From: an uncultured Lachnospiraceae bacterium
Lineage (GTDB): Bacteria; Bacillota; Clostridia; Lachnospirales; Lachnospiraceae
DNA: 40,882 bases
NCBI GenBank assembly: GCA_902785055.1
Contig: CACZXG010000008.1
Span: 1 to 40,882 of the forward strand
Reading direction: 5' to 3'
Under the pieces are notes generated by a model, which had not been told where the DNA came from, did no database searches, and was given only the letters and a program-made list of their open reading frames with translations. This document shows positions 1,544 through 30,400 of the stretch, in pieces (position 1 is the stretch's first letter; every line of letters begins with the position of its first letter). The position numbers were made by a program, and so were the translations under genes.

Positions 1544-1559
1544 GTTGCGATATCGCAAC
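1544..1559. repeat. 16-bp perfect palindrome, copy 1 (intergenic)
   Basis: GTTGCGATATCGCAAC, a perfect dyad, just after the stop of the Gln/Asn-rich gene. Three further copies lie inside genes at 13223, 16458 and 29706, with either TA or CG at the centre and always fully palindromic. The shared flanks are CC before and A after. The same spacer (1541-1626) also holds a small inverted repeat, TACCGC...GCGGTA at about 1593-1613. Confidence 0.9.
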
Positions 1560-1626
1560 ACAACACCGGCTGCCGATGGGATGCAGTCGCTTACCGCAAA
1601 AAGTTAGCGGTAGAAAGGAAAAAGAA

Positions 1627-2017
1627 ATGATGGAATCTGGAAATGGTGGCGTAAATATGTCTATGCCGGTAGCACCCGCCTATGGCGTACCCGCTTATGG
1701 CGCACCTGCCGGAGGGCGGCTCCTACGCCTACTATGATGAGGATCCACGGACTACTGCTATGGGCGGCTCTATGAGAGGCTCTTATAACGGGAACGGTTC
1801 TTACCGCATGTCCGGCAAGCGTGACAGCATGGGGCGGTATTCCAGAGCAAACGGCGGCATGGGCGGCTCCTATGAAGGAAACGGCGGTATGTCGAACCGT
1901 GGGTACTCCAGAGGGGGCAACAACGTGACCGACGGCCTCCGGGAGCTGATGTACGCGGCTCCGCAGGAGATGCAGGACGATATCCAGAGACTGATTAAGA
2001 AGTTTGGCAACATGTGA
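1627..2017 (+). CDS. Gly/Tyr/Arg-rich small protein, apparently split by a +1 frameshift
   Basis: A good ribosome binding site (AAAGGA) precedes ATG ATG at 1627. That frame encodes MESGNGGVNMSMPV followed by a Pro/Ala/Tyr/Gly-rich stretch ending PAYGAPAGG, then runs into TGA near 1735. The next frame then continues the same style of protein (GGSYAYYDEDPRTTAMGG), then SYNGNGSYRMSGKRDSMGRY, and ends with a helix, LRELMYAAPQEMQDDIQRL, stopping at 2017. The only ATG of the second frame (1682) has no ribosome binding site and lies inside the first. I infer one gene with a one-base shift in or near the GGAGGGCGG run at about 1710. This could be a real mutation, a sequencing error or less likely programmed shifting. 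Proteins with this RDSMGRYSR-like signature are common in Clostridia phages; their function is unknown. Confidence 0.6.
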
Positions 2018-2032
2018 TCAGCAGATCACGCG

Positions 2033-2066
2033 CAAGGCCGGTCCTTATTCGGGCCGGCCTTGTTTT
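2033..2066 (+). terminator. Rho-independent terminator
   Basis: A 12-bp stem (CAAGGCCGGTCC with GGGCCGGCCTTG, one G-U pair), a 6-base loop TTATTC, then TTTT. It ends the lysis/small-protein transcript just before the receptor-binding protein gene. Confidence 0.85.
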
Positions 2067-2080
2067 AAAAGGAGATAATT

Positions 2081-5000
2081 ATGATCATAGTAAAAAATCG
2101 TGAGCTACTGATCCCGGAGAACGAGCGGTATATCGGTACATCCTATGACACGGAAACCGAGAATCGGCAGTTCAGGCTGGAAAAGTTTGCTCAGAATGGT
2201 GTGGACCTTTCCGCGCTCACTTTCCGTCTTGATCTCAAATATGAGAATGACGGACTCGATACGGTACTTCTTACAAAAGAAGTGTTTGAGAACTATTTTG
2301 TCCTGACATGGACCATCACAAAAAACACGCTGAAGGTTCCTGGAACAGTTTTCATCGGTCTCCGTGCAATTGATGACGAGGCAACTGTAAGGTGGGCGTC
2401 CTATACAGCAGCGGTATATGTTGATCGACACCTGAACACTCCTGGTGCATATACTGGAGATCTGACAGAACTGGAGCAGATTGAGCAGGACCATGTCTAC
2501 ATGCTTAGTGTTGTGAACGAACTGAAGGACAACCTGGATTACAAGCATGCTGCTGAGGCGTGGGCAATCGGCAAGCGGAATGGCGAGGCGGTCGAAACAA
2601 CCGACGAGACCTATCACAACAACTCAAAATATTATTCTCAGCAGGCGGGATCCAGCGCAACGGCGGCTGCAAACTCTGCAGCGGCGGCTGCGGGATCCGC
2701 GACACAGGCGGCGGCTACCGTGGAAGATACCAATACGAGGTTTAACAACGCCATCAATGCGATGACGCAGGAGACCGAGGTGGTGGATGCCAGAGTTGGT
2801 GCTGATGCTATAGTATACAGCACTTTGAAGGGGAGACTGGACGCTGAGAATACTGATTTAAAGAACGCTTTAAGTGCTTCAAATTCTATTCACATAGAGA
2901 TTGGAAGATACAGCCAAACAAGAAAAGCCAGAGCCGAAATCTCCGATGCAAAAAATTGTTTTGCGCTTCTGATACCTTGTAGAGATGAAAGCACGGAAGT
3001 AAGGTATATCGTTGGGTATCCTTATATGGTTCATTTGTACGGTCGGGCGCTTAATCTTATATCGTCTGATCAAGACTGGAACAGTGCAAGCAAAACAGTC
3101 AGCAACGCCGGCGGTTATATGACCATTGTATATTCGAAGAATCCTTGGGCAGATTTTACTCAAGACGATGTTGACTTTTTGAAAGAGCAGTTGGCGTTCT
3201 ATGTAGATGATGGGCTTGAAGTAGAAAATACATTGGGAAATTATTCTGCTATAAAAATGACGTTAGGAACGTACAACGCATCTGCGAGAACCACATATTC
3301 CGATAATAACACTCGCTGTTTCAGTTCTTTAGTTCCATGCACAAAAGATGTCGTTGTAATACCAAGTCACTCTCTGTATCCTTTTATTGTCCACACATAC
3401 GATAGTCATTATACGCTTATTTCTTCTGATGCGGATTGGAACATGGAGAACCGATACATTGAGAATAAAGGTGGGTATATTGCTATTGAGGTTTATAAAA
3501 AACCTTGGGGCAGTGAAATAACAAACGATGATCTGAAAGAGATTGAGAATAACATATTTGTCCCTGATCCGGTTTTTACTATCGGTGTATGGAATATGTC
3601 ACGGAAAAACATCGATGCTAACACGCGTAGATGCACATCGTATTTGATAAATTGCGTTGATGACACTACCATTATTCCGTATATCCCTGGATATCCGTAT
3701 TTCTATTGGGTCTATGACAAAAACATGAACCTTATAGAGAGACATGACAATTTATCGACATGTTATTCGACTAAGTTCCACAACAAAAATGGGTATATCG
3801 TTGTAGCTTATCAAAAAGCATTCGGTGATACTTTTGATGAAGATGATGCAACTTTTATTACAAGCCATTTTTCGATAAAAAATGAAGAAGATGCTATTAG
3901 AGATGAGCTACGAAAAAAGTATGTATATGGAACAGCATACAGAGTGAGCCCGCAGAACAAAAGATGCTCTGTAGAACAAAGCGGATCGCCAGAGCGTTGC
4001 TTTTCATCGATGATATATTGCGCGCAAAAATCGATGATTGTTCCTCATATTCCTGGTTATAAACATGTAATATATTTGTTCGATCAAAATGAAGATTATA
4101 TAGCTTGTTATCCTTCAAATGAACAATTTGTTAGTGGAACACACAATGTAGAAAATGAAGGAGGATTCATTTCAATAGTTTGGGCAAAGGATGATGGGGT
4201 CTTCACAGATGCAGATGTTGAATCTATTCGTAAGGCAATTGTATCAAACAGCTATGTAAATCCTGTTATGCAAAGGGAAAACTATAGCACACCGATTCTT
4301 ACAATCATTGATGATGATGGAAGAGTTGGATTCCCTGATGAAGCTGACATGCTTGAAGATCATGGTGTAACGGGAACATTTGCGGTAATATCAGATTTTG
4401 CTGATGGGACACATAATAACTACATGAATCTTAGCCAGATACTGAATCTTCGTGACAGAGGGTTCGATGCCGTGTCACATACAGCTTCGCACAGCACAGG
4501 CATCTATGGGAACAACTATAGTGCTGGTAGATACTGTAATTTCAGCATGGTCAGTGACGAAACAGTAGCTGCAGACCTAAAACGGTCACGAGATTTTCTC
4601 TTAAAATACGGATTAAATGCTGATGCAATAATCTGGCCTTGGGGGAATTATCCGACAGGATACAACATCCACACAAATAACCCAGATCCGGAAGATCCAC
4701 TGGTTATTGGTGCAGATAATCAGAGATTGCGTTATACAAAAATAGCTCAAAACGTAGGATTCAAATACGGAGCGAACAGTACTGGTGGTCTTGTACTATC
4801 GTCTGATTTTGATGACATGTGGATTCCACGCGTTCCGATGATGGCAGATAATACAAATTATCCATTATCGTATTACACGGCAATGTTAAACAAAACCAAG
4901 GAGCGTGGTGGTTGGTTCATCTTAATGACCCATGCCAGTGACCCTTTATATGCAGACCTCCAAAAACTGACGGATGTAGTTGAATACGCTTTGAATAATG

Positions 5001-5122
5001 GTATACAAATTCTCAATTTTAAAGAGGCTTATCAGATAAAAAGGCATTCTGTTTCCATTGGATTAGGCCTTAATCCATATCATCATTTCTATGTCGGCTG
5101 TGATGGGGTTATCCATTTTTAA
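2081..5122 (+). CDS. Tail fibre/receptor-binding protein with C-terminal polysaccharide deacetylase
   Basis: A 1013-residue protein. Residues 1-130 resemble the BppU-type N-terminal domain that anchors baseplate and tail fibres. An Ala-rich helical stretch follows at about 175-215. Four tandem modules of roughly 110 residues then start near 269, 389, 498 and 614. Each has a Cys-containing strand (for example NCFALLIPC, RCFSSLVPC, RCTSYLINC, RCFSSMIYC), a PY or HV aromatic strand and an acidic end such as FTQDDVDF. From about 735 a NodB-like deacetylase follows: TIIDDDG (metal Asp), SHTASH (H-T/S-x-x-H), WPWGNY and LMTHAS. It probably binds and trims cell-surface glycans during adsorption. The part from about 2880 onward is visibly more AT-rich than its neighbours, suggesting acquisition by transfer. 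A strong AAAAGGAG ribosome binding site precedes the start. Confidence 0.85.
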   Translation: MIIVKNRELLIPENERYIGTSYDTETENRQFRLEKFAQNGVDLSALTFRLDLKYENDGLDTVLLTKEVFENYFVLTWTITKNTLKVPGTVFIGLRAIDDEATVRWASYTAAVYVDRHLNTPGAYTGDLTELEQIEQDHVYMLSVVNELKDNLDYKHAAEAWAIGKRNGEAVETTDETYHNNSKYYSQQAGSSATAAANSAAAAAGSATQAAATVEDTNTRFNNAINAMTQETEVVDARVGADAIVYSTLKGRLDAENTDLKNALSASNSIHIEIGRYSQTRKARAEISDAKNCFALLIPCRDESTEVRYIVGYPYMVHLYGRALNLISSDQDWNSASKTVSNAGGYMTIVYSKNPWADFTQDDVDFLKEQLAFYVDDGLEVENTLGNYSAIKMTLGTYNASARTTYSDNNTRCFSSLVPCTKDVVVIPSHSLYPFIVHTYDSHYTLISSDADWNMENRYIENKGGYIAIEVYKKPWGSEITNDDLKEIENNIFVPDPVFTIGVWNMSRKNIDANTRRCTSYLINCVDDTTIIPYIPGYPYFYWVYDKNMNLIERHDNLSTCYSTKFHNKNGYIVVAYQKAFGDTFDEDDATFITSHFSIKNEEDAIRDELRKKYVYGTAYRVSPQNKRCSVEQSGSPERCFSSMIYCAQKSMIVPHIPGYKHVIYLFDQNEDYIACYPSNEQFVSGTHNVENEGGFISIVWAKDDGVFTDADVESIRKAIVSNSYVNPVMQRENYSTPILTIIDDDGRVGFPDEADMLEDHGVTGTFAVISDFADGTHNNYMNLSQILNLRDRGFDAVSHTASHSTGIYGNNYSAGRYCNFSMVSDETVAADLKRSRDFLLKYGLNADAIIWPWGNYPTGYNIHTNNPDPEDPLVIGADNQRLRYTKIAQNVGFKYGANSTGGLVLSSDFDDMWIPRVPMMADNTNYPLSYYTAMLNKTKERGGWFILMTHASDPLYADLQKLTDVVEYALNNGIQILNFKEAYQIKRHSVSIGLGLNPYHHFYVGCDGVIHF

Positions 5123-5158
5123 TAGAGCAAGGGATTCTAACTTAAAGGAGGGTGTATT

Positions 5159-5323
5159 ATGGCAACCTATAATACCGGGATAGCTAATATCGAATATGAA
5201 ACAGAAGAGGAATTGAAGATATTAATGGCGGTGTATCCGAATGATGATTGCCCTGACGATCTTCCTTGTCCGCCGCCACCTATTGGTTCTGACTATTTAA
5301 TCGGTAAGGGGGTGATGAATTGA
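5159..5323 (+). CDS. 54-residue acidic, Pro-rich small protein (XkdX-like position)
   Basis: ATG at 5159 has a strong AAAGGAGGG site 6 bases upstream. The product starts MATYNTGIANIEYETEEELK, continues into DDCPDDLPCPPPP and ends GSDYLIGKGVMN. No domain is recognised. It lies between the receptor-binding protein and the endolysin, and its stop overlaps the TTG start of the endolysin. Tiny acidic proteins in this slot (XkdX-like) are often found after tail fibre genes; assignment to that family is only a guess from position. Confidence 0.75.
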   Translation: MATYNTGIANIEYETEEELKILMAVYPNDDCPDDLPCPPPPIGSDYLIGKGVMN

Positions 5324-6132
5324 TTGCGAATTCTGGACACGACGAAAGAAATAAGTACCGTGGCGGGAAGGCAGGCGACCAGACCGGCGGCGAGTATGCG
5401 GTAATCCCGTGGTATTCCCGCCCCTGGACCTGCGTCCTCCGCTGGCCCGATAAGACCGTGGCGGCAGATATCGCATACTGCGCGAGGGCAGCGGCAGAGA
5501 ATAACTGCATCGGGTATGATCAGGCCCAGAGGGCAACCTTCTGGACGGCACTTTCCCAGGTCCCCGGCTATGATCCGGCGAAGATCACGACGCCCTGTGA
5601 GAGTGACTGCACCTGCGGAGTGGCAACATGCGTTAAGGCTGCCGGTATGCGAAAGGGCAGCCATGTTCTCAAGGAGATCGACCCGGACTATTACTGGAGC
5701 GGGAATATGAGACCGGCTTTCAAGAGCCTTGGTTTCCTCGTCCTGACGGATCCTAAGTACCTGACCTCAGACCGATACCTGCTAGCCGGAGATATACTGC
5801 TCTATGAGAATCACCATGCGGCGATCAACCTGGATGTCGGCTCCATGGTCCGGGAGGACTGGACTACGGTAGCCACCTATCAGGAAGGTTGGAACCGGGA
5901 TGACACCGGCTGGTGGTACGCGACTACGGCGCACACCTATGCGAAGGACCGGTGGATGAAGATCAACAATTGCTGGTACTACTTCGACCACAACGGATAC
6001 GCCGTGAAGGGCCACCAGAAGATCGACGGAAAGGACTGGTTCTTCTGCGATGAGGCAGGCCATCCGAAGGAGTGCGCCCTGATGGTGACGGACGAAGAGG
6101 GAGCGCTGCATGTGTGGGCGCTGAGTGCTTGA
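5320..6132 (+). CDS. Endolysin: NlpC/P60-CHAP-like cysteine peptidase with choline-binding-like repeats
   Basis: A 270-residue protein. Residues 1-190 match a common Clostridia phage endolysin type: NSGHDERNKYRGGKAGDQ, SWYSRPW-like YSRPWTCVLR, the cysteine site CESDCTCGVATC, YYWSGNMRPAFKSLGF, then LAGDILLYENHHAAINLD with the presumed catalytic His. The C-terminus has Trp/Tyr-rich wall-binding repeats (GWWYATTAHT, CWYYFDHNGYAVKGHQ, DWFFCDEAGH). It should cut peptidoglycan peptide bonds once the holin opens the membrane. It starts with TTG, preceded by a GGGGGTGA site, and overlaps the stop of the previous small gene by four bases (translational coupling). Confidence 0.85.
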   Translation: MIANSGHDERNKYRGGKAGDQTGGEYAVIPWYSRPWTCVLRWPDKTVAADIAYCARAAAENNCIGYDQAQRATFWTALSQVPGYDPAKITTPCESDCTCGVATCVKAAGMRKGSHVLKEIDPDYYWSGNMRPAFKSLGFLVLTDPKYLTSDRYLLAGDILLYENHHAAINLDVGSMVREDWTTVATYQEGWNRDDTGWWYATTAHTYAKDRWMKINNCWYYFDHNGYAVKGHQKIDGKDWFFCDEAGHPKECALMVTDEEGALHVWALSA

Positions 6133-6141
6133 CATGCACAC

Positions 6142-6196
6142 TGTGACACCATACTATAATAGAAGAAAGTACAAAAATCACACGAAACATCACACG
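6142..6196. promoter_or_regulatory. Probable integrase arm-type sites, left side of attP
   Basis: TGTGACACC at 6142-6150 recurs at 6382-6390 on the other side of the att core. ATCACACG occurs twice, at 6177-6184 and 6189-6196, 12 bp apart. Short repeats flanking a tRNA/tmRNA-like core next to a tyrosine integrase are typical arm-binding sites for its N-terminal domain. Confidence 0.55.
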
Positions 6197-6232
6197 GGCG
6201 CGGAAAAGCCTTGAAATTGCGTGGATTATGTA

Positions 6233-6255
6233 GGGTTCGACTCCCGTCATCTCCA
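6233..6255 (+). other. attP core: 3' end of a tmRNA (ssrA) or tRNA-Ala-like gene
   Basis: The sequence is a T-loop with its 3' stem (GGGTTCGACTCCCG) followed by an acceptor strand TCATCTCCA, the last 23 bases of a tRNA-like 3' end. No matching 5' half exists nearby, so this is not an intact RNA gene. The acceptor strand places U at position 70 and A at 73, which fits the G3-U70 rule of tmRNA and tRNA-Ala. The site lies beside an integrase that reads toward it, so integration should rebuild the host gene. The exact left edge of the core cannot be set without the host sequence. Confidence 0.75.
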
Positions 6256-6261
6256 TGCTTG

Positions 6262-6317
6262 AAAAAGCCAGTAATTACGCGGAACATCTTGAGAAACCGC
6301 TTAATTACTGGCTTTTT
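6262..6317. terminator. Bidirectional rho-independent terminator beside attP
   Basis: Perfect 16-bp inverted repeat AAAAAGCCAGTAATTA / TAATTACTGGCTTTTT with a 24-base loop. Runs of A and T on either side make it usable in both directions. It sits between the endolysin, the att core and the convergent integrase. Confidence 0.75.
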
Positions 6318-6370
6318 ATTTTGCTATGAAGTTTTCTAAAACCGTATCAAGGGAATAAAAGCGGTACAAA

Positions 6371-6390
6371 TGTCACACGCGTGTGACACC
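6371..6390. promoter_or_regulatory. 18-bp perfect palindrome, probable integrase arm site on the right of attP
   Basis: TGTCACACGCGTGTGACA at 6371-6388 is a perfect dyad and contains the TGTGACACC element also present at 6142. It is 23 bases from the integrase stop codon (6412), so it is unlikely to be an integrase operator and more likely an arm-type or accessory-protein site for recombination. Confidence 0.5.
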
Positions 6391-6411
6391 CTGTAGCATG
6401 AAAAAAATGCG

Positions 6412-7458
6412 TCATTTCGCTAGGCTGTTGAAGTGCTCCTTTATCCGCTTCGTCTGCTTCGCTCCCTCAATGTCGATGACGTTGCGGTACACCCGTTTCA
6501 TCACACTGTCCGTGGTCCAGCCGCCGCGCTGCATGATGTACTGGTCCGGCACTCCGATTGCGTGCATGATCGAGGCTGCGTAATGCCGGAGATCGTGGAA
6601 GCGGAAGCGGGGGCAATCTGCCTCGCTGATGGCCCTCTGCCAGCGGTCAGAGAGCGCGGACGGAGTACATTGGATAATTTTACCCTCGATACCTTTCAGC
6701 TCCTCCATGACGCTCTCAGGCATCTCTATGCGGCGATATGATCCGTAGGTTTTGGTTCCCTTCACTTCCCATTCCTTGTTTGTGTTCTGCACCATGGCTT
6801 TTGAGACCGTGACCATGTTCTTTGATATCATGATATCATCCGAGGTGAGAGCACAGATCTCCGAGCGGCGGAGCGGCCCGAAGGCGGCGAGAAGGATTGC
6901 GATCCGCAGGTCACGGTCAGCTACGGTATCCAGGAGCCGCCGGACGTCCTGATCGGACGGACAGTACAGCTCTACTTTCTGCGGAGCGGGGAGAGTGACC
7001 TTGAAGCGGAAGTCCGGGGAGAACATCTCAACCGCTGACTTCACCAGTGTGTATACGTTGCGGACTGTCTTCGGAGACCGCCCGGACGCCAGATCGGATA
7101 TCCACAGCTGCAGCTCCGTGTTGGTGAGGGCCGACACCTCCATATATCCGAGAGCGGTGTTGTCAACGTATCGCGCAGCCACCCTCCGGTAGTTCAATAT
7201 GGTAGAGGGGGACAGGACCGGTTCTTTTGAATTTATGTACCGCTCCAGGGCAGACGCGACGGTAAGCCGCGGGGCCTTCACGCCGCCTTTCGCCATAAAC
7301 TCCCGATACTTAAATTCTGCTTCCGACCTGGTGGCCCCGGTGAAGCTCTTCACGATCCTGCTGCCATCAGGATTCGTTCCGACCTTCCGCTGGATCCTGA
7401 TCGACCCGGAAGGGAGCTGACACTTGTCCTCATCCTTCTTATTCCTTTTCCTTGCCAT
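6412..7458 (-). CDS. int: Tyrosine-type site-specific integrase
   Basis: A 348-residue phage integrase. The N-terminus is basic, with an AP2-like arm-binding region (SIRIQRKVGTNPDGSRIVKS). A SAM-like core-binding domain follows at about 65-160. The catalytic domain carries the expected series: PLRRSEICALT (Arg), a KGTKTYGSYR lysine region, FHDLRHYAAS (His-x-x-Arg), RGGWTTDSV and VYRNVID (Tyr nucleophile). It inserts and excises the genome at the adjacent att core. The start has AAAAGGAGG upstream on the minus strand. It reads away from the repressor and toward attP, the usual layout for temperate phages. Confidence 0.93.
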   Translation of the reverse strand: MARKRNKKDEDKCQLPSGSIRIQRKVGTNPDGSRIVKSFTGATRSEAEFKYREFMAKGGVKAPRLTVASALERYINSKEPVLSPSTILNYRRVAARYVDNTALGYMEVSALTNTELQLWISDLASGRSPKTVRNVYTLVKSAVEMFSPDFRFKVTLPAPQKVELYCPSDQDVRRLLDTVADRDLRIAILLAAFGPLRRSEICALTSDDIMISKNMVTVSKAMVQNTNKEWEVKGTKTYGSYRRIEMPESVMEELKGIEGKIIQCTPSALSDRWQRAISEADCPRFRFHDLRHYAASIMHAIGVPDQYIMQRGGWTTDSVMKRVYRNVIDIEGAKQTKRIKEHFNSLAK

Positions 7459-7498
7459 GATTCCTCCTTTTAGTTGACTAAACGAGCAAATTCCTTGA

Positions 7499-7585
7499 CT
7501 AATCCGGGTTTATTAATTGGGAATCTGACCTTATTGATTTGATGAAAAACCGGGTGTAAAATAATATCAGGACCTCCGGTGCCAT
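7499..7585 (-). CDS. Possible 28-residue ORF between repressor and integrase
   Basis: On the minus strand an ATG at 7585 follows a strong AAAAGGAGG and gives MAPEVLILFYTRFFIKSIRS plus eight more residues. An overlapping frame without a standard start reads DIILHPVFHQINKVRFPIN and ends at 7470, just before the integrase. The AAAAGGAGGAATCA box is duplicated here (7588-7601) and before the integrase start (about 7459-7472). This may be a real leader peptide, a decayed excisionase-like gene with a frameshift, or only a duplicated ribosome binding site. I recognise no function. Confidence 0.25.
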   Translation of the reverse strand: MAPEVLILFYTRFFIKSIRSDSQLINPD

Positions 7586-7607
7586 CAGTGATTCCTCCTT
7601 TTAAATA

Positions 7608-7645
7608 GCCTCCCCGTGACCGCCGACCACGGGGAGGCACTTTTT
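7608..7645 (+). terminator. Strong hairpin with T-tract between repressor and integrase
   Basis: An 11-bp GC-rich stem GCCTCCCCGTG / CACGGGGAGGC, 9-base loop, followed on the plus strand by ACTTTTTT. In plus orientation it is a textbook terminator and would stop transcripts running into the lysogeny genes from the left. On the minus strand the stem is followed by TATTTAAAA, which is weaker, so some repressor transcripts may continue into the integrase. Confidence 0.75.
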
Positions 7646-8034
7646 TATTTCTTCTGCTCCTCACGATGGAATCCGATGAATAGAGCTTCCATAGCCTTTT
7701 TAAAGGATTCCCACTGCTCATCGTCCATTTTAGCCATGGCGGTAACGATTCTCTTCTTAAAGTCATCATCATTGATTTTGGTGAGGCTTTCTGCAAATCT
7801 CTTCAGAAGATCGTTGTCGCTCTGAGGAAGGAACATAGTTCCCTCCCCGGTGCGAAGCCAGGTCTCGTCTACATTTAGCTTAGAACAAATCAAAGAAACT
7901 GCCGCATCCCCTGGATTGCTTTTCCCTGTCTCATAAGATGCAAGCGTATTCCTTGTGATCCCGATTTTATCGGCAAACTCTTGCTGAGTGAGATTCATAG
8001 ATTTTCTCAACTCTCTTAATCGTTCATTCATCAT
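7645..8034 (-). CDS. CI-like lysogeny repressor (HTH_3)
   Basis: A 129-residue protein. Its N-terminal Cro/CI helix-turn-helix is clear: RKSMNLTQQEFADKIG then ITRNTLASYETGKSNP at about residues 9-40. The C-terminal part is short and helical, with no S24 peptidase, so it would not self-cleave as LexA-type repressors do. The frame is open up to 8262, but the real start is ATG ATG at 8034/8031 after AAGGAGG on the minus strand; the upstream part covers the promoters. It should bind the three operators at 8091-8157, shutting the rightward promoter and maintaining lysogeny. How it is inactivated is not visible here. Confidence 0.88.
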   Translation of the reverse strand: MMNERLRELRKSMNLTQQEFADKIGITRNTLASYETGKSNPGDAAVSLICSKLNVDETWLRTGEGTMFLPQSDNDLLKRFAESLTKINDDDFKKRIVTAMAKMDDEQWESFKKAMEALFIGFHREEQKK

Positions 8035-12436: not shown

Positions 12437-13414
12437 ATGGCGGTAAAGAATCAGATTGCGAGCAGGAGTAACCAGCGGCTCGGAATGGCGGCGTATCTTA
12501 CGAACGACGCCGTAAAGAACCAGATCAACTCAATCGTCGGCGGAAAAAATGGAGCAAGGTTCATCAGTTCCATCGTGTCAGCGGTTCAGACGAACCCGGC
12601 GCTGCAGGAGTGCACGAACCAGTCTATCCTGTCAGCGGCCCTTCTGGGAGAATCCCTGAAGCTTTCGCCGTCTCCGCAGCTGGGGCAATTCTACATGGTG
12701 CCCTTCAAGGACCGGGAGCGGGGGACAGTGGCACAGTTCCAGCTCGGATACAAGGGATATATCCAGCTGGCAATCCGCTCAGGCCAGTACAAGAAGTTGA
12801 ATGTGCTGCCGATAAAGGAAGGGGAGCTGATCTCCTACAACCCCCTGGAGGAAGACATCGAAGTCCAGCTCATTGAGGACGAGGAAGCAAGGGAGCAGGC
12901 CCCCACCATCGGCTACTATGCCATGTTCGAGTACACCAATGGATTCCGGAAGGCGCTGTATTGGTCAAAACAGAAGATGCAGACACATGCGAAGAAGTAT
13001 AGTCAGGGATATGCCGCGGATCTCCGTAAGGGAACATCCTGGACCTTCTGGTCAAAAGACTTTGACGGCATGGCCATGAAAACAATGATCAGACAGCTCA
13101 TAAGCAAGTGGGGCGTCATGTCAATCGACATGATCACCGCCATGGAGTCTGATGCCGCGGTCATCAAGGAAGACCTTACCCCGGACTATGTCGAATCTGA
13201 GGAAGTGCCGGAGGCCGCTGCCGTTGCGACGTCGCAACAGCCTGCCGAAGAAGCCGCTCAGGCGGCCGAGGAAGCGAAGGAAGAATTGAAGGCGGAAGTT
13301 CCTGCACCCGAACCGGCAAAGCCGCAGGAACAGGCGCAGAGAGCGCCGGATGCACAGCCTGCAACGGAGCGTGGCGCGGCAGATGCCGTAGCAGCGGCAT
13401 TGTTCGGAAGGTAA
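12437..13414 (+). CDS. recT: RecT-family single-strand annealing protein
   Basis: A 325-residue protein. Residues 1-245 are a typical RecT: FISSIVSAVQTNPALQECTN, LGESLKLSPSPQLGQFYMVP, QLGYKGYIQLAIRSGQYK, then KDFDGMAMKTMIRQLISKWG. It anneals complementary single strands and works with YqaJ. From about residue 250 the protein is an Ala/Glu/Pro-rich tail (QPAEEAAQAAEEAKEELKAE), likely disordered, with a short FGR end. Copy 2 of the 16-bp palindrome falls in this tail as VATSQQ. Confidence 0.93.
   Translation: MAVKNQIASRSNQRLGMAAYLTNDAVKNQINSIVGGKNGARFISSIVSAVQTNPALQECTNQSILSAALLGESLKLSPSPQLGQFYMVPFKDRERGTVAQFQLGYKGYIQLAIRSGQYKKLNVLPIKEGELISYNPLEEDIEVQLIEDEEAREQAPTIGYYAMFEYTNGFRKALYWSKQKMQTHAKKYSQGYAADLRKGTSWTFWSKDFDGMAMKTMIRQLISKWGVMSIDMITAMESDAAVIKEDLTPDYVESEEVPEAAAVATSQQPAEEAAQAAEEAKEELKAEVPAPEPAKPQEQAQRAPDAQPATERGAADAVAAALFGR
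13223..13238. repeat. 16-bp perfect palindrome, copy 2 (inside recT)
   Basis: GTTGCGACGTCGCAAC, codons GTT GCG ACG TCG CAA C, encoding VATSQ(Q) at residue 263 of RecT, at the start of its disordered tail. It is identical to copy 4 at 29706. Confidence 0.9.
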
Positions 13415-15830: not shown

Positions 15831-16658
15831 ATGTCGGAGGATGGAACTGTCGTGCAGGAGCTGCCATGGTACGCGAAATGCTCACTGGATGACGCGCGGT
15901 GCTTTATCGGTGCCAACCTCAAGACCGTGGCCCGGTGCGTGGTGGCGGTTGGGTACTATCTCAAGCAGGTGCGGGATCGGGAACTGTGGATGGATGCCGA
16001 GGAAGCAGGATATACCTCCGTGTGGGACTTTGCCTCCCGGGAATTTGGAATATCAAAAAGCACGGCCTCAAGGTACATGAGCATAAACGACCGGTTCTCC
16101 GAGGGCGGAGACTCACCGCTCATCCTGGAGAAATACGCAGAGCTGTCAAAGTCGCAGCTTCAGGAAATGCTTTACCTCACAGACCAGCAGGCCGAGGCGG
16201 TGACCCCGGAGACTACGGTGCAGCAGATCCGGGCGATGAGGATCCCGGAGCCGGAGCCGGCGGAGGTGCTGGAAGGGCAGATGTCAATCTCGGAATTCCT
16301 TGATGTTGCGCCGGAAACGGAAGAACCAGAAACGGCGGAATCTGGTTTTATTGTGCGCGAATCTGCCGAAGATGCAGGGTATAAAACCATGAGTGGTCCA
16401 ATAAAACCGTGTGTGGTCGCCATGGATGACCTGATCCCGGAAGAAGAAGCCGCTGCCGTTGCGATATCGCAACAGGAAGGCACCGGGGAACTGATCCTGC
16501 CTGCCAGATGCGAGTATTGTGCGAGGAATGCGGATAACGGTGGCGTGTATGATGACGGACGCACAAGGTGCCCGATACAAGAACACTATTGTCTTCCGAT
16601 GGATGGATTCTGCCACTTATGGGAAAAGCGGAAGGACGGTGAACAGCATGACGATTAA
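15831..16658 (+). CDS. HTH protein with C-terminal cysteine cluster
   Basis: A 275-residue protein. Its N-terminal half has a HTH-like part (SVWDFASREFGISKSTASRY), then MSINDRFSEGG and LSKSQLQEMLYLTDQQAEAV, a pattern seen in many Clostridia phages and loosely like DUF3102/ParB-type DNA-binding proteins. A long acidic linker follows, carrying palindrome copy 3 as VAISQQ at residue 210. The C-terminus is a zinc-site-like cluster, CEYCARN ... RCPIQEHYCLPMDGFCHLW. It is probably a DNA-binding regulator or replication accessory; no function is proven. Confidence 0.75.
   Translation: MSEDGTVVQELPWYAKCSLDDARCFIGANLKTVARCVVAVGYYLKQVRDRELWMDAEEAGYTSVWDFASREFGISKSTASRYMSINDRFSEGGDSPLILEKYAELSKSQLQEMLYLTDQQAEAVTPETTVQQIRAMRIPEPEPAEVLEGQMSISEFLDVAPETEEPETAESGFIVRESAEDAGYKTMSGPIKPCVVAMDDLIPEEEAAAVAISQQEGTGELILPARCEYCARNADNGGVYDDGRTRCPIQEHYCLPMDGFCHLWEKRKDGEQHDD
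16458..16473. repeat. 16-bp perfect palindrome, copy 3 (inside the HTH/zinc gene)
   Basis: GTTGCGATATCGCAAC, read GTT GCG ATA TCG CAA C (VAISQ), in the acidic linker of the HTH/zinc protein. It is identical to the intergenic copy at 1544. Confidence 0.9.
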
Positions 16659-22930: not shown

Positions 22931-24965
22931 GCGCACGGTAGGGCAGTGGGGCGGCCTCGATGAACGCCTGATCATCGACGAGAACGCCTTTTCAGCCATG
23001 AAGAACATGAGTACGCGGTTCTTCCCGGCAATCGCCACAAGACTGCCGAGAGGGGCCGCACAGCAAACAGTCGATAATCCGCACGGCCTTTACTGGAAAA
23101 ACCATCTGTTCTGGGTATCCGGGACGCAGTGTTACTACGACGGCAGTGCGGTGGACGGCATGACGGTGACGGACGGTGACAAGCAGATCGTGGGCATGGG
23201 GGCCTACATCGTGGTGTTCCCGGATAAGAAGATCTTCAACACTGCGACCGGGGAAGTAACTGCGATTGATGCGGCCTACACGCAGAGCAGCACGATCACA
23301 TTTTCGGAACTGAGTGCAGATTCCGTCTTCTGTAAGATCACCGCCACAGGGATTGATGATGTCTTTAAGGCTCACGACGGCGTGAAGATTGAGGGCGTCA
23401 ACGACAAATCCTTTCTGGTGGAGGGGGAACCCGCCACAAAGACAATCAGCGATATCGGCACCGGGTACATCGTGGTGCCGGCCGTGATCCAGAACAGCTT
23501 TGTGGGTAAAATCAGCATGTGGGCCAGCGGCAGCGGAACAAAGCTCCAGGGGACCGGAATTCATGAGAACTTCGGTGTCAACGACATTGTTAAGGTCGTG
23601 GGGGCAAAGGATGACGCACTGAACGTGGAAGGGAAGGCCGTCACAGCGGTGGGAGCGGACTATATCGTGATAGATTCGCCGTTCCAGAGCAAATCCTATA
23701 CGCAGTCCCAGAACGTGATCTTCAGTTCTTACTACGAAGGCTCCAATCTCACGCGGATATATGCCAGCGACATGGGCGACCTGTTCTCCGAGGGAGATAA
23801 AGTCACCATCGCGGGATGCACCAACGCGGCCTACAACGGCAGCTTCATCGTCAAGGCGGCGGGGACAAACTACATTCTGGTGGATGGGACACTGGAAACG
23901 GATTTCACGCAGCAGAGCGGCCTTTCCATCACACGAACATCCTTTGAGCATGCGGGTGTGACCGTGAAGCGGACATCCTTCACCAGGGCGTCCGGGATCA
24001 CCATCAAGCGGACCTCACAGGACTTCGACTTTGTCTGTGAGCATGAGAACCGGCTGTGGGCCTGCAGCAGCGAGAACCATGAAGTATATGCTTCAAAGCT
24101 GGGAGACCCGACGAATTGGAACTGTTATGAGGGCATCAGCACTGACAGCTATACCGTGACCATCGGATCAGACGGAGACTTTACCGGGTGCTGCTCCTAT
24201 ATGGGGCAGGTGCTGTTCTTCAAAGAGCAGACCATTCACATGCTCTATGGCAACAAGCCGAGCAACTACCAGCTCAGCGAAATGCACATGCCGGGAGTCC
24301 GGGAAGGCAGTCACCGGTCACTCTGCGTGGCAAATCAGACGCTTTACTATATCGGCAGGAGCGGCGTTTACCGCTTCAATGGCGCTGCCCCGGAGAAAAT
24401 CTCAGACCAGATCACATCTGAGCTGTCTGAGGGCGTGGCGGGGGCGCAGGACGGTAAGCTGTACCTTTCCTGTTTGAAGGACGGCGTGAGGGCGCTCCTT
24501 GTCTATGATCCGAAGTACCAGACCTGGTATCACGAAGACGGTACGCAGTTCCGGCACACCGCCAGCGAAGGCGGCAAGCTCTACTACATAGATGGAACCG
24601 GAGTGCTGCAGACCATCACCGGCGACAGCACCGACCTTATCAAGTGGAGCATTGAGTCCGGTGACCTGCGGGAGTCCTCGCTTGATCAGAAATATATATC
24701 CAAAGCGAAATTCTCGCTCTGGATGGATGCGGGAGCGGAGGCGAACATTTTCTTCCGGTTTGACGAAGATCCTCTCTGGCACCGGGCAGGGACCGTACAT
24801 TCCGTGACCGCGAAAACGTACAACATTCCCATAGTGCCGCAGCGGTGCGGGAGATTCCGCTGGAAGATGGAGGGCAAAGGACAGGTGAAGCTCCTCGCGA
24901 TGGGAATCACAGTGGAAGGAGGCAGTGAAATCAATGGCAACTTACACTCCTGGTTCCGCAAGTGA
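22890..24965 (+). CDS. Tail hub/nozzle-like beta-rich protein
   Basis: About 691 residues from ATG 22890 (SLPFLRSITGIRERTVGQWG). This start gives the usual N-terminus; upstream codons in the same frame lie within the previous gene and are not protein-like. The middle contains repeated Ig-like or OB-like strands (DVFKAHDGVKIEGVNDKSFL; SEGDKVTIAGCTNAAYNGSF). The C-terminal half resembles a beta-propeller: NRLWACSSENHEVYASKLGD, FFKEQTIHMLYGNKPSNYQL, LYYIGRSGVYRFNGAAPEK. Such proteins form the tail hub or nozzle of short-tailed phages (P22 gp10, T7 gp12). The assignment rests on style and order. Confidence 0.75.
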   Translation: MSLPFLRSITGIRERTVGQWGGLDERLIIDENAFSAMKNMSTRFFPAIATRLPRGAAQQTVDNPHGLYWKNHLFWVSGTQCYYDGSAVDGMTVTDGDKQIVGMGAYIVVFPDKKIFNTATGEVTAIDAAYTQSSTITFSELSADSVFCKITATGIDDVFKAHDGVKIEGVNDKSFLVEGEPATKTISDIGTGYIVVPAVIQNSFVGKISMWASGSGTKLQGTGIHENFGVNDIVKVVGAKDDALNVEGKAVTAVGADYIVIDSPFQSKSYTQSQNVIFSSYYEGSNLTRIYASDMGDLFSEGDKVTIAGCTNAAYNGSFIVKAAGTNYILVDGTLETDFTQQSGLSITRTSFEHAGVTVKRTSFTRASGITIKRTSQDFDFVCEHENRLWACSSENHEVYASKLGDPTNWNCYEGISTDSYTVTIGSDGDFTGCCSYMGQVLFFKEQTIHMLYGNKPSNYQLSEMHMPGVREGSHRSLCVANQTLYYIGRSGVYRFNGAAPEKISDQITSELSEGVAGAQDGKLYLSCLKDGVRALLVYDPKYQTWYHEDGTQFRHTASEGGKLYYIDGTGVLQTITGDSTDLIKWSIESGDLRESSLDQKYISKAKFSLWMDAGAEANIFFRFDEDPLWHRAGTVHSVTAKTYNIPIVPQRCGRFRWKMEGKGQVKLLAMGITVEGGSEINGNLHSWFRK

Positions 24966-25734
24966 CCTCGATTCGCTCGACAGCATAAAGAAGGTTCAGG
25001 AGTACCTGATCAAGCAGGAGCGGAAGCTGGATTACATGTTCAATAATCTGGATCCGCAGGATAACTACTCCGAACAGGCGCGGCTCATCATGGTGGAGGA
25101 TGGTGAGCGGCAGGCGTCGATAGAGGTATCCCTTAACCAAATCGCGCTGAACTATGTGTCAAAAAGCGGCGTCGTTTCTGCCATCAATCTGTCTGAAGAA
25201 ATGATCCAGATAGAGGCGTCAAAGATCAAGCTGGAAGGCATGGTCACGGTGAATGGATACTTCAAGGTCGGCCTTGACGGGAGTATAGAAGCGCGGAATG
25301 GTAAGTTCTCCGGGGATATCAGCGCATCAACCATCCGCGGCTCCCACATCTACTCTTCTTACTACGGCACAAATCAGGATGACTTCTACATCGTTGAGAC
25401 TGAGACGGGCACGGAGATAGGCTTCGCAGGCTTTGAGGGATGGGGAGACAAGATTCTTCGGTCACATACCCTTGGGAGCTGGGAGAATCCGGCATCGCAG
25501 GATGATTCGAGAATAGCACTTAACAGCAACAATGGCGCCGCCGGATTCACTTATCTGTATGTGATGGGTGTCAGGAATGATATAGCATCGGAGATATCCG
25601 CTATATGGGACGCAATAGAGTCCATCGACGACGGTGGAGGCGATGAAGAAGGCGGCGGAGAAAGTGGTGGAGGCGATGAGCCGATCTCCGGCAATGGCGA
25701 TGTCGAGGGAACAGATGCAAACATCAATCCGTAA
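24934..25734 (+). CDS. Minor tail protein
   Basis: A 266-residue protein from ATG 24934 after GAAGGAGG (GTG 24925 is an alternative). A helical N-terminus (SLDSIKKVQEYLIKQERKLD) is followed by beta-helix-like repeats typical of phage minor tail proteins (ALNYVSKSGVVSAINLS, KLEGMVTVNGYFKVGLDGSI, RNGKFSGDISASTIRGSHI) and ends in a Gly/Asp/Glu-rich tail. It probably forms part of the tail tip below the hub. It overlaps the hub gene by 32 bases. Confidence 0.75.
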   Translation: MATYTPGSASDLDSLDSIKKVQEYLIKQERKLDYMFNNLDPQDNYSEQARLIMVEDGERQASIEVSLNQIALNYVSKSGVVSAINLSEEMIQIEASKIKLEGMVTVNGYFKVGLDGSIEARNGKFSGDISASTIRGSHIYSSYYGTNQDDFYIVETETGTEIGFAGFEGWGDKILRSHTLGSWENPASQDDSRIALNSNNGAAGFTYLYVMGVRNDIASEISAIWDAIESIDDGGGDEEGGGESGGGDEPISGNGDVEGTDANINP

Positions 25735-25744
25735 GGGGGAATGA

Positions 25745-25930
25745 ATGAAATATACAGAGACACAGATTCAGAGTGTGCTACAGCTTCTTAACCGCATAGA
25801 AGTCAAAGGCGTCGATAACTGTAAACGGATTTGCATAATAGAGCAAATCCTCCAGAATCCGCAGAGGGAGGAAAAAAATGGCAACTGCAGTGAAGAGAAA
25901 CACCCGGTCACAGGAAGAGATCAGGCGTAG
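25745..25930 (+). CDS. Small hypothetical protein
   Basis: A 61-residue protein: MKYTETQIQSVLQLLNRIEV then KGVDNCKRICIIEQILQ, a pattern common in tiny phage proteins (LL..I.v.G..Nc..i..i..IL). It has AAGGGGGAATG upstream and overlaps the next gene by 53 bases; the overlap part is charged and looks non-essential. The function is unknown. Confidence 0.6.
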   Translation: MKYTETQIQSVLQLLNRIEVKGVDNCKRICIIEQILQNPQREEKNGNCSEEKHPVTGRDQA

Positions 25931-27416
25931 CCTTGGCCTTCTCGCCGGGAACAGCGGGAAAAGCGGGAGCAATACTCCCATTGCAAGCACAGGAACTGTG
26001 CGGCCCAGAACCGGCGCCACGGAGGCTCCGGCGGGATGGTACGGCAGCAACCCCACACCGTCCGCGTCGCAGATTCAGGGGATGCCGAGCAACCCGATCA
26101 GCTTCAGCGGCCCGTCTCAGGCGGTGACGCAGGGGACCGGTAACGTCCGTGTTGGGCAGGCTCCGGGGGCAAATGCCGGTGCAGTGAGCACTCCGGGAGC
26201 GACCGCGGCGGGAGTCCGGGCGAAGTACAACCCCTTCAATGAGACGTTCCAGCGGAGGCAGTTCTCTACAAGCGGGGATACGGACGAGTATTATGACCTC
26301 ATGCGTGAAACCGAAGAGAACCGCCCTGATCCATTTCAGAGCCGCTATGAGGGTGCGATTCAGACCATCTTAGACGGAATCCTGAATGGTAATCAGGAGA
26401 AGTTCGATTTAAACAAGGATGCCAACTATCAGCAGCTTTACAACCTCTATGCCCAGCAGTACCAGGCGCAGGCAAACAGAGGTATGCGGGATACCATGGG
26501 CGCCATGCAGGCTGCAACCGGCGGGTACGGAAGCACTGCCGCAACTGCCGCTGCCGGGCAGGCGTATGACCGTGCCATGGAGGGCCTGAACGACCGGAAT
26601 ATGCAGCTTATGCAGATGGCATACCAGATGTACGGAGACGCACAGAATGACAGATACCGGCAGCTGGGAGCCGTGACCGGCCTTGATGATACGGACTATG
26701 CAAGATACAGGGATACCGTCGGGGACTGGCATCAGGATCGTAACTATTATGCGGGCCAGTACCAGAACTTCTTCGGAAATGACTGGGCTGAGCATCAGTT
26801 CGACGCCGGAATGGACTGGAGTGAGTATGTAGACAGAGCGAACCGGGCATGGCAGGAGTTTGAGTATGGAGATCAGAAGGAGTACCAGAAGCAGAGGGAT
26901 GCATTAAGCGATTATGACAATGCTTTCAATGTTGCATTAAAGATGGCCAATGCCGGACAGCAGGTGCCTTCTCATTATGCTTCAATGCTTGATCCTGCGG
27001 ATGTTGAACAGCTTAACGCACTTGCCGCACAGATGCAGGCAGAAATGCTTGCAGGTGGTTCTGGTGGTGGCGGTGGACGTGGCCGCGGCGGGAGAAAATC
27101 TTCCGGTAAGCCGAATGTAGAGGTTCAGACTGGACAGCCATTCGCGTCTACGCTCGGATACGATGTTAATCGTAATATTGCTGCAAATGCTGTTAATGCT
27201 CAGACCGGTGACCAGGCGAAATATAACAGCATTGAAGATGCCGTGGTTACTGGACTGATCACACCGGAACAGGGCCTTGAACTGATTCGTTCTGCTGGTC
27301 TTGGTATCAGTACGGACCCGGCACAGATGCAAAAGGATGCTGCGCTCCGCAAGAAGAAAGCGGATGAAGAAAATGTTTACAGTCCGATACGACAGGCTAT
27401 GAGACTTCGGAGGTAA
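25878..27416 (+). CDS. Internal virion/ejection-like protein
   Basis: A 512-residue protein, mostly helical and rich in Ala, Gly, Gln, Asn and Tyr. The middle (RGMRDTMGAMQAATGGYGST, AATAAAGQAYDRAMEGLNDR, then YRQLGAVTGLDDTDYARYRD) is the repetitive style of podovirus ejection proteins, which leave the head first and build a channel for DNA. A Gly/Arg-rich hinge (GGSGGGGGRGRGGRKSSG) at about 395-413 splits it. It stands directly before the giant gene and after the tail proteins. Function is inferred from order and composition. Confidence 0.7.
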   Translation: MATAVKRNTRSQEEIRRSLGLLAGNSGKSGSNTPIASTGTVRPRTGATEAPAGWYGSNPTPSASQIQGMPSNPISFSGPSQAVTQGTGNVRVGQAPGANAGAVSTPGATAAGVRAKYNPFNETFQRRQFSTSGDTDEYYDLMRETEENRPDPFQSRYEGAIQTILDGILNGNQEKFDLNKDANYQQLYNLYAQQYQAQANRGMRDTMGAMQAATGGYGSTAATAAAGQAYDRAMEGLNDRNMQLMQMAYQMYGDAQNDRYRQLGAVTGLDDTDYARYRDTVGDWHQDRNYYAGQYQNFFGNDWAEHQFDAGMDWSEYVDRANRAWQEFEYGDQKEYQKQRDALSDYDNAFNVALKMANAGQQVPSHYASMLDPADVEQLNALAAQMQAEMLAGGSGGGGGRGRGGRKSSGKPNVEVQTGQPFASTLGYDVNRNIAANAVNAQTGDQAKYNSIEDAVVTGLITPEQGLELIRSAGLGISTDPAQMQKDAALRKKKADEENVYSPIRQAMRLRR

Positions 27417-27419
27417 GAC

Positions 27420-30400
27420 ATGGCGAGACAGATTGGCATGCGCGATGAGACCGAGAAGGTCTATTCGAAAAGGAAAAAGGTAATACATACTGCTGAGACT
27501 ACACCTGCAGGCTCATTACAGTATCATGAGAACAAAAAGGTAATCGGCAAAGGTGATGATCGGGCGGAAAGAAGGATGGCTTTCCGCCAGTTCGTATCAA
27601 AGAATCTCCAGATGGCACAGCCTGCGCAATCTTCACAGCCGGCGCGCCCAGCTCCGGCACAGAGGATCAATCCCTTTGATTCTATTACCTATCAGAATCC
27701 TGCGGCACAGGCCATGCACCAGCAAACCGGATGGATGGATCCGACAACGAAGGCGTTGTGGGATATCGCGAATCAGTCCATCGGGAAGCGGGGCAGCGTG
27801 TCTCCGAGCACGCTCCATGCTGTAGGTGGGCTTCAGTTTGATGTCCAGAATAATCGAGACAGGCTGGACTCCATGGTTCAGATGGAGAACCGGCGTCAGC
27901 AGGCGGAAGATCGGAGGAACCGGCAGCAGGAAGCATTCGATAACGCGAAGACCAGAGCTGACAACGCGAGAAGGACACAGCAGGTGTCCAATAATCCCAT
28001 GCGGCCTTCCTATGTCGTAAAGAATTCTGATGGAACAAATGAAATCCATCGACCTACTTCGGATGATATCAGGCCGTGGGAATCCATTCAGGAAGCACCT
28101 ATAGCATCTATAGTTAGAGGCGTTACAAATGGGTCCGGCGTTCCGTCCCTTGGGTACGCGGTTTCTGGTGCGTTTGCAAATGCTACTGGCAATGAGCGTT
28201 TGAAAGAAGCGATAAGGCGAGACTCCATGAATGAAGCGCTCCGTTCACAGCAGGCGCAGGAACGTCATCCGCTTGCTTATGGCGCCGGTAATATAGGTGG
28301 AAATCTTGCGCTCATGGCCGCAACTGGAGCTGCCGTAAACGCCATAGGAGGCGCGGCTCTCGGTGCAAGGAACTTCGGAAAGATCGGCAACGCGGCACTG
28401 CGAATGGGAACAGGCGCGTTGAACTTTGCCGCCACAACTGCGGTCCAGGAATCTGGAGCAGCCGTGAACGGCCTTATGTCCCCGGAGGATTATGCAAAGG
28501 ATGTTCTGGTATCCGGCGGCGCGGGCCTGACACAGTCCATTGCTTCCATGGCTGCGGCTGGCGGAATTGAGAAGATTCTTATGAAGACAGGGAATCAGAC
28601 GGCGTTCCTTGATTTTGTGAAGAATCTCACTGCGGCCTCTACTGGTTCAGCAGCAAGAATCGGTTTCGAATATGGATTTGAAGACAAGAACCCGACATCT
28701 ACATTCCGTTCCAACTACCTGTCAACTCATGCCGGCGCAACGGAGGAAGATGTCAGGAGGGCATATGAAGCATCGTTGAGGCAGAAGGCCGCGATCCAGT
28801 TCGGCACATCCTTCTGCTTTAGTCTCCTGTCATCGTACAGATCCACGCTGGAGACAAACAAAAGGATGAGCGCTTACCTCGAAAATGAGTTTGACCAGCT
28901 GGAAAGAGACATGGAGTCTCTCGGCAACATGCGTATCTCTGAGGGAGAGATCGGCTCATGGAAACAGTCGGTCAACGATCGCACCAACAGGCTGAGAAAT
29001 ACGCTTTCAGAGAATTATTTCGCTGGGCAGCAGGACAAAGTGAACGCCATGATGGAGTTGCTTGACGAGATTGATGACCGCGCGGATATGGCCTATAACA
29101 ACATTATGGGCGCCGGGGAAGCGGATGCGGCGGCGTCGAACACACCGCCTTCACAGGGATTCGTTGACGCTATTGGCGCTGCGGTAAGGCAGGGCGCAGA
29201 AGAAGCGGGAACCGTATCTGCTCCTTCCGCCTCAACGGCAGACATGCTTACCGAGATTGCCAACACGCCGATGCCTGCATCTGACGAGCTGAATATGACC
29301 GTGGACGAGCTGAACGATGCCTTGAACAGCCCCTTTGCAGTTTTTGATGCAGATGAAGCGAGGGCAGCGGAAGAAGAGCGTAGAATCAACGAGGCGGTTG
29401 ACAACATCAACATGGAAGTTGATAACCGTCGCTGGCAGGCGGAGCAGAACCGCAAACGGCAACGGCAGATAGAGAAAGGTATTCCGGCTCAGACAACCGC
29501 TCCCACAACCGCTCCCACAACCGCTCCCACAACTGAAACCGCTGCTCCCTCAATAGATATTGAGGCGGAAGCCGCTGCCAGAAGGCAGCAGAACGCTGCC
29601 AACCTGCAGCGTCGGCAGGAGATTGAAGAAGGAATCCCCGCGCCGGTCCCGGCCCCCTCAACGGAAGAACTGCTTCAGGAAATCGCAAATACGGAAGTGT
29701 CCCCCGTTGCGACGTCGCAACAGCAGCCGGAAGCTCCTGCACAGGAAAACAGGACACCGGCCCCGGAACTTAAGACAGATGAGACAGAACGTGAGACGGC
29801 ACCTGCTGTTTCGCCTTCTTCTGCTGCCCCGAGCACGGATGAGCTTGCGAGTATCTTCCCGGAAGGCGCCGCGGAAGTCTATAAGAAGTACGCCGCGGAG
29901 GATTCAGACGATATTCTCTATTATCATGACAACATGCTGAAAGCGTACCAGGCAGGAGTAAAGGAGCAGAGCCTTCAGTCCCTCATGCTTAATGACGAGG
30001 ACTTTGAGGACTTCTGGTTCTCTCATGAGGATGCCGTTGAGGACATTTACCGCCAGGGCTATCTTTCAAAGGTTCAGAGAGACAATGAGAACCGGATTGA
30101 AGAGGCACAGGCTCCATTGAATGAGGCACCGGCAGAGGGTAAAATAGAAGAAACGGAACCGTCTACCCCCGCGCCTAGAACAGAATTTGCCACCGCAGAG
30201 GCGTCGCAGCTCAGCTCTGATCTGTTCCAGCGGAAAAGGGTAGACCAGAACGGTTTCAGATATTCAGTAAGGGGCGATGATGGTCAGTTCTTCGGAAGCA
30301 TTGAGCGGATCGGAGAAGGTACTGTCAGAAACGCGAGAGATACCGTCTATACCGTCGGCCCGAAGGCGACGATTCAGGAAGTGGCTGACGATCTCGCGGC

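Follow-up and report, generated by a model that had tools for sequence, protein, structure and literature searches.

The stretch of DNA analyzed here, which we call the window, is a complete 40,882-base contig from an uncultured Lachnospiraceae bacterium that carries a phage, and it contains four copies of the perfect 16-bp palindrome GTTGCGA(TA/CG)TCGCAAC. We conclude that this palindrome is quite probably bound by a helix-turn-helix (HTH) protein that the phage itself encodes, a protein of 275 residues whose gene is at 15831..16658 on the + strand. A first-pass annotation of the window had already proposed this protein as a candidate dimeric binder, and sequence comparisons lend support to the idea in three ways: members of the protein's family tend to have such a site within their own gene, variants of the site covary with residues of the protein, and palindromes also accompany the genes of remote relatives. 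As to function, we tentatively propose, with slightly less than even confidence, that the protein keeps its own expression in check and, by occupying the dispersed sites, acts as a roadblock to, or organizer of, phage transcription. If the pairing is correct, a concrete DNA site and candidate specificity residues can be assigned to an uncharacterized family of proteins from temperate phages of Firmicutes and, through homology, to DUF3102 of other phages. It would also give a first handle on the role of the HTH protein family, which thereby becomes testable.

A perfect palindrome occurs four times in the window

The window contains exactly four exact copies of the motif, all of which the first-pass annotation had located correctly. 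The copy at 1544..1559 (TA center) lies at a gene junction, 3 nt past the stop codon of the open reading frame (ORF) at 1304-1540, and is the one that had been described as intergenic. The other three lie in the C-terminal linker of recT (13223..13238, CG center, peptide VATSQQ), in a linker of the HTH protein's own gene (16458..16473, TA center, peptide VAISQQ) and in a linker-like stretch of a giant ORF (29706..29721, CG center, peptide VATSQQ), and the claim that all three are read in the frame GTT GCG A.. is accurate. The motif had also been said to recur beyond chance. Against the 4 copies observed, a first-order Markov model predicts 0.00019 exact matches in the window; the corresponding probability of at least four matches, ~5e-17, is an indication of size and no formal test, since the pattern was picked after the data had been seen. 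When one to three mismatches were allowed, no weaker copies were found in the window, where shuffled sequences average 1.84. The window holds six perfect palindromes of at least 16 bp, and four of these are the motif.

Elsewhere in the 3.13-Mb parent genome assembly (87% complete), no copy of the motif was found outside the window's contig, and among 195 related genomes, including the window's own, three had a motif match. In 397 genomes of the host family, the 14-bp core TTGCGAYRTCGCAA occurs in 34 and a reversed control pattern in 4. A host-directed motif, one of the options in the first-pass annotation, is thus disfavored. The HTH protein's family was detected in 47 of the 397 genomes, and specifically in 18 of the 34 with TTGCGAYRTCGCAA versus 29 of the 363 others (Fisher 5e-10), where the genomes drawn for the motif and those drawn for the protein are treated as the same genomes.

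A pattern search of the IMG/VR viral records with a free center gave at least 120 stretches. Among the matches listed, the centers of 142 copies are CG (56), TA (53), CA or TG (11) or other (22), a set that includes the window, duplicate loci of the window and near-identical phages. TA or CG is therefore present in 109 of the 142, versus roughly one eighth for a free dinucleotide. The earlier observation that both center forms preserve the dyad holds in this larger set, and a dyad kept through its center is as expected for the site of a symmetric DNA-binding protein. These centers also bear on whether the palindrome might act as an RNA hairpin affecting translation or mRNA stability. The palindrome could indeed pair as RNA and often adjoins a ribosome-binding site, but the two bases at its center are constrained even though the loop of a hairpin would leave them unpaired. 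Moreover, most copies in genes of the HTH family lie deep in the coding sequence, and the site covaries with a DNA-binding domain. We regard an RNA hairpin as extremely unlikely.

The site lies within the gene of its candidate binder

Long ORFs in the GTT-GCG frame around the IMG/VR copies repeatedly proved to be members of the window HTH protein's family. Relatives were gathered by protein similarity from viral contigs, the 195 related genomes and named genomes (mostly Lachnospiraceae), and the 128 family hits were reduced to 113 distinct genes by merging those with identical first 120 residues. A perfect palindrome of at least 14 bp, of any sequence, occurs within 100 bp of the gene in 87 of the 113. 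Palindromes of the motif family, a criterion that was defined after this first count, occur within 100 bp in 83 and inside the gene in 80. Their density is correspondingly uneven, with 92 in 165 kb of gene regions versus 61 in 1,347 kb of flank. Among genes outside the stretches from the motif scan, a nearby site was present in 43 of 62 from cellular genomes and 31 of 41 from viral records; the rule is thus independent of how the first loci were found. In these 83 genes, the family appears to share with ParB-type proteins a cognate palindromic site near or in the binder's own gene; parS often lies near parB.

A rival reading is that of a plain autoregulatory operator, with the remaining copies being side sites or relics moved with gene cassettes. 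In two loci (L175 and L250) the site stands directly before the family gene, and in six phage records, of which four lack the HTH protein, a TA site stands ahead of a small gene whose product starts MKYRKKP. The upstream palindromes of remote relatives, described below, also fit an operator. However, the 80 in-gene sites are inside coding sequence and at varied positions, and sites distant from the HTH gene are conserved among related prophage-like regions. It is unlikely, in our estimation, that the palindrome is an operator of this simple kind.

Variants of the site covary with two residues of the protein

Half-sites near the gene differ by clade: TTGCGAC is found 43 times, TTGCACC 17, TTGCGCC 12 and TTGCGAT 6, with 6 more spread over five rare forms. 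Of 38 further copies in these loci, 30 share the core of the site near the gene, where permutation gave a mean of 15.0 and a maximum of 26 in 2000 trials. At the second base from the dyad, A goes with V or I at residue 130 of the protein in 58 of 59 genes, and C goes with K, R or A there in all 38. At the third base, G goes with R or K at residue 134 in all 72 genes, and A goes with some other residue in 22 of 25. Across the 97 labeled genes, a few of whose labels are probably chance palindromes (L197, L235), residue 130 agrees in 96 and residue 134 in 94. Consistent with this pattern, relatives with K130/Q134 carry GTTGCACC sites and relatives with R130/R134 carry GTTGCGCC sites. In a scan of alignment columns by mutual information, residue 130 ranked highest (1.18), followed by positions 22, 52 and 51 (1.07, 1.04 and 1.02).

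In a tree constructed without columns 130 and 134, the site base changes at least 5 times and residue 130 at least 4 times. Site switches in L240/L241, L242, L224 and L132/L134 accompany R or A at residue 130, and L244, which combines G with R134, is nested in a clade that combines A with Q134. We consider the covariation of the site with residues 130 and 134 to be suggestive, with the caveat that relatedness may explain part of it.

The AlphaFold model of residues 1-142 (mean pLDDT, the predicted local distance difference test, 91.7) has a folded, mostly helical domain that begins at about residue 19 and comprises residues 19-136 (15885..16238, + strand). A predicted helix at residues 76-89 (KSTASRYMSINDRF; 16056..16097, + strand) is likely the HTH recognition helix, a role that we infer. 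Residues 130 and 134 would lie one turn apart on another predicted helix, residues 130-135 (VQQIRA; 16218..16235, + strand). We suggest that the protein reads the two half-sites as a dimer and, given the covariation, that helix 130-135 may read the bases near the dyad. If the pairing is true, the window's HTH protein is expected to bind GTTGCGATATCGCAAC and GTTGCGACGTCGCAAC, and not GTTGCACCGGTGCAAC.

Remote relatives of the DUF3102 type

Three of the IMG/VR motif matches listed are in or just before DUF3102-like genes. Two of these genes pass the PF11300 (DUF3102) cut-off of 24.4 bits (L064 with 30.5 and L022 with 25.0), and the third is below it (L046 with 18.9). The window's HTH protein itself has no match to Pfam PF11300, and matches PHROG 15077 (unknown function) at 1e-46. 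However, comparing the alignment of its family with a DUF3102-type alignment by hhalign gave 95.7% (E 1.1e-8), and a Foldseek search matched the DUF3102 phage protein A0A2H4J025 (E 8.8e-3, probability 1.00). By profile comparison and predicted fold, then, the window's HTH family is distantly related to DUF3102.

The loci of these relatives also resemble those of the HTH family in having palindromes, here with the core CGACGTCG. Such a palindrome is found at most 130 nt upstream of the gene in 18 of 31 L064-type loci, versus 6 in 200 kb elsewhere, where the 31 are those loci with enough upstream DNA and many are near-copies of one another; the other 13 lack one. The arms of the upstream palindromes vary (AAAGTTGCGAC.., AAAGTTTCCGAC.., AAATGCGACGAC..). 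The arrangement differs from that of the window's family, in that the DUF3102-type site is upstream of the gene and not inside it. In a separate observation, locus L154 (G074:C24) has six CGACGTCG-core palindromes in ~1.6 kb around one HTH gene, with arms GTTTCGAC, GTTCCGAC twice, GTTGCGAC twice and GTCTCGAC. In the literature naming DUF3102, as far as its accessible portion goes (subscription journals were mostly outside the search), no account of function was apparent.

Selection acts on the DNA, and sites are kept while flanks diverge

The peptide VA[TIM]SQ occurs 55 times in the 113 genes, and all 55 occurrences use the codons of the palindrome arms (53 with the full 16-mer and 2 with a 14-mer), which indicates selection on the DNA. 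A motif at the level of the peptide VATSQQ was rejected on this basis and because non-coding copies exist. The in-gene sites (n=97) are in frame 0 in 91 cases, frame 1 in 6 and frame 2 in none. This frame rule is best read as tolerance, since frame 0 yields small and polar residues, and it agrees with the earlier suggestion that linkers tolerate the sequence.

We also compared three related prophage-like regions (G311, G479 and G563) with four sites each, which lie, judged by eye, in the HTH gene, at the boundary of early and late genes, in a gene between portal-like and capsid-like genes, and past a lysis-like region. Identity among the regions is 16/16, 16/16, 16/16 and 15/16 in the sites and 142/281, 109/302, 195/314 and 214/299 in their flanks. 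In G479, the sites are at 3.5, 18.3, 26.5 and 48.1 kb of the stretch. For the window itself, the nearest relative found is L130, a record of 36.5 kb whose HTH protein is 91% identical. The expectation that positions would be kept in relatives was borne out in part: the in-gene site is kept in L130, as it is in L131, and the other sites are not kept in L130. The recT stretch of L130 gave no blastn alignment to the window.

These observations are relevant to the proposal that the palindrome is a tiny mobile or recombination-promoting element, i.e., a boundary sequence that spreads among phages and is tolerated in linkers. Of the 37 gene-junction copies, 24 have a start codon 13-17 nt downstream, and some copies are at apparent module borders, e.g., before integrase and portal genes (by eye), as such an element might be. 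On the other hand, sites are retained while their flanks diverge, the variant follows the co-encoded protein, and the rest of the window's genome has no copy. The proposal, which the first-pass annotation had raised, is in our view very unlikely. A repeat of the REP (repetitive extragenic palindromic) or MITE (miniature inverted-repeat transposable element) type would have many host copies at positions that are not kept, and this is not the pattern seen.

Compared with a control stretch, the 20 nt ahead of the 37 junction sites (52 rows minus copies inside long frames and similar contexts) are not enriched in -10-like sequence. The spacing at junctions without this enrichment, together with the positions in linkers, suggests that the sites are put where 16 bp fit and not at promoters. 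Dense coding genomes can thus house DNA signals within protein linkers and gene junctions.

Possible roles of the dispersed sites

Viral records have up to 6 palindromes each, and elements carry up to about five beyond the in-gene site. In the mechanism that we tentatively favor, the HTH protein would be made from the early/replication region, early in the lytic phase. Binding in or before its own gene would limit its expression, i.e., autoregulation, and occupation of the dispersed sites, placed at gene junctions and in linkers where 16 bp fit harmlessly, would form a genome-wide transcription roadblock and organizer. The present evidence fits a roadblock and an organizing role alike.

A different reading is that the palindrome is a centromere-like or genome-organizing site, with the protein marking and clustering phage DNA for segregation, replication or compaction and having little direct effect on transcription. 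Sites spread across whole elements (e.g., G479), their placement where 16 bp fit and the site within the binder's gene, reminiscent of parS near parB, would all be compatible with it. However, the ParA model PF13614, the only one tried, matched in 0 of 32 viral records, which may be incomplete, and its 4 places in the window's genome are all outside the window's contig. In addition, a Pfam scan of the window protein at E up to 0.1 found no ParB CTPase domain, and the DUF3102-type relatives have their site just upstream of the gene, an operator-like place. We view this reading as somewhat unlikely.

With respect to ParB itself, the PHROG ParB-like match to the window protein is weak (3e-4), hhalign of its family with five chromosomal-type ParB proteins gave 0.4%, and the protein has no significant match by sequence in PDB. 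Foldseek against PDB also returned nothing significant (best E 2.8 and 4.7; VirB core E 9.0 and 9.8). Together with the absence of hits to a CTPase domain or, in the records searched, to a PF13614 ParA, these results do not support membership in the ParB family. The label "parS-like" that had been applied to the palindrome is therefore a fitting analogy, while homology to ParB is not established.

Several known systems nevertheless offer analogies. Phage N15 is a plasmid prophage with SopA, the ParB-type SopB and dispersed centromeres, and an effect of its Sop system on late gene expression has reportedly been seen. The window's phage is similar in having few palindromic sites spread over the genome, and differs in that no ParA of PF13614 was found. 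Plasmid RK2 encodes the DNA-binding protein KorB, which regulates genes from OB operators on its own element, in part at a distance, but KorB is a CTPase sliding clamp that works with KorA (PMC11790492), whereas the window protein has no recognized CTPase domain and its family's site is often inside the binder's own gene. For ParB-parS and Noc-NBS (Noc-binding site), PMC7383237 describes half-site base 6 as A in parS or C in NBS, discriminated by residue 201 (G or R), where the R of Noc contacts guanine. In our palindromes, a near-dyad base also alternates between A and C and covaries with V/I or K/R, although we do not claim residue 130 as a structural counterpart of residue 201, and the comparisons above do not support kinship with ParB. 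Finally, the stoperators of cluster A mycobacteriophages are likewise dispersed protein-binding sites of a phage, a number of them in short intergenic spaces, but they are asymmetric, transcription-oriented 13-mers that number >20 per genome and are bound by the immunity repressor (PMC9283540), unlike the palindromes found here. By analogy, the HTH protein might act in the manner of KorB-OB, N15 Sop or stoperators. Overall, the interpretation in the first-pass annotation is partly supported.

Observations that weigh against the proposed pairing

It is important to consider a number of results that count against the pairing or its proposed function. Proteins that the motif search had turned up served as seeds for the family profile and for alignment A2, and the motif had likewise led to some of the viral records beforehand. 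No perfect family palindrome is near 30 of the 113 family genes. Because only perfect palindromes were counted, the symmetry of the half-site variants follows by construction, and the evidence they provide is their excess at the gene. Residues 130 and 134 were chosen after a scan of all columns, in which positions 22, 52 and 51 came close behind, a result that differences between clades would produce. A phylogeny-aware test had three supported pairs (2 agree, 0 oppose and 1 unchanged), with p 0.5. In the comparison of prophage-like regions, the flanks of the second site in G311 scarcely align, such that the same place is not established, and L130 keeps only its in-gene site over 36.5 kb. An operator overlapping a promoter at gene junctions was rejected given the lack of -10 enrichment. 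Lastly, no relative of the HTH protein was detected in 16 of the 34 motif-bearing genomes (about 4 of the 34 might be chance by the control pattern), in 26 of 49 motif-bearing IMG/VR records listed, many of them fragments, or in 11 of the 26 listed records of at least 30 kb. Four sites are present in each of two elements, G196 and G222, that lack a relative.

Elements with sites but no detectable relative

When eight records and the window were searched sensitively for a hidden relative, G196, G222, G220 and G238 yielded none. Of the four TA sites of G222, three precede a gene, at a distance of ~50 nt for an endolysin-like, 14 nt for a portal-like and 16 nt for an integrase-like gene, and the fourth lies where a sigma-like gene ends (genes judged by eye). 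The repressor of G222 was rejected as a binder, as the repressor-cro gap (31412-31543) has no such site.

In some cases, an element without the gene shares its genome with one that has it, so sites may be used in trans. Within genome IMG 2915695283, G198 has the gene, and G238 has sites without it. In G256, sites are on C14, C19, C16 and C21, and HTH genes are on C16 and C21. G107 has six sites and one HTH gene, which is distant from the five listed sites. Other motif-bearing genomes have no relative anywhere. A broader picture, which we consider rather unlikely as a whole, is one of phage-wide site marking in which neither a ParA nor a CTPase domain takes part, the site is housed in the gene of its binder so that the two travel together in mosaic exchange, and sites are also used in trans.

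Genomic context and additional observations

The ends of the window's contig (G000:C8) overlap by 99 bases, which points to a circular assembly. Its phage identity is based on PHROG matches to small terminase, large terminase and portal proteins and a Pfam match to RecT; integrase-like and repressor-like ORFs were also read from the sequence by eye. The recT gene (12437..13414, + strand; PF03837 3.5e-44, PHROG 148 1e-72) is followed by the HTH gene and then by the small terminase gene. In five other loci inspected by eye, the family gene comes after replication- or recombination-like genes, and an HNH-like gene is next in 3 of the 5. The giant ORF (27420..38600, + strand) encodes 3726 residues, of which residues 1-400 have no PHROG match at 0.01. 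Searching INPHARED with the HTH protein gave one partial match, of 39% identity across 38%, to an unannotated record, and no PLSDB plasmid matched. One of four core palindromes was found once in the literature, in an unrelated context, with subscription journals mostly outside the search; a further word search turned up nothing apparently relevant in the texts that were accessible. Being short, the palindrome could also help to find phages of this kind and to sort them into groups.

The remaining two long palindromes in the window are unrelated to the motif. That at 6371-6388 (18 bp) is just past the integrase-like ORF, and that at 6823-6838 (16 bp) is within it. In the MKYRKKP records mentioned above (L016, L017, L028, L053, L054 and L088 from IMG/VR, of which 2 of the 6 also have the HTH family), a terminator-like hairpin, the TA palindrome and a ribosome-binding site are repeatedly packed almost without gaps in front of the gene, an arrangement that resembles a traveling cassette. 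In L041, L048, L129 and L009, the palindrome adjoins a second similar element, which is GTTGTGACGTCACAAC (or its overlap) or GTTGTAACGTCACAAC.

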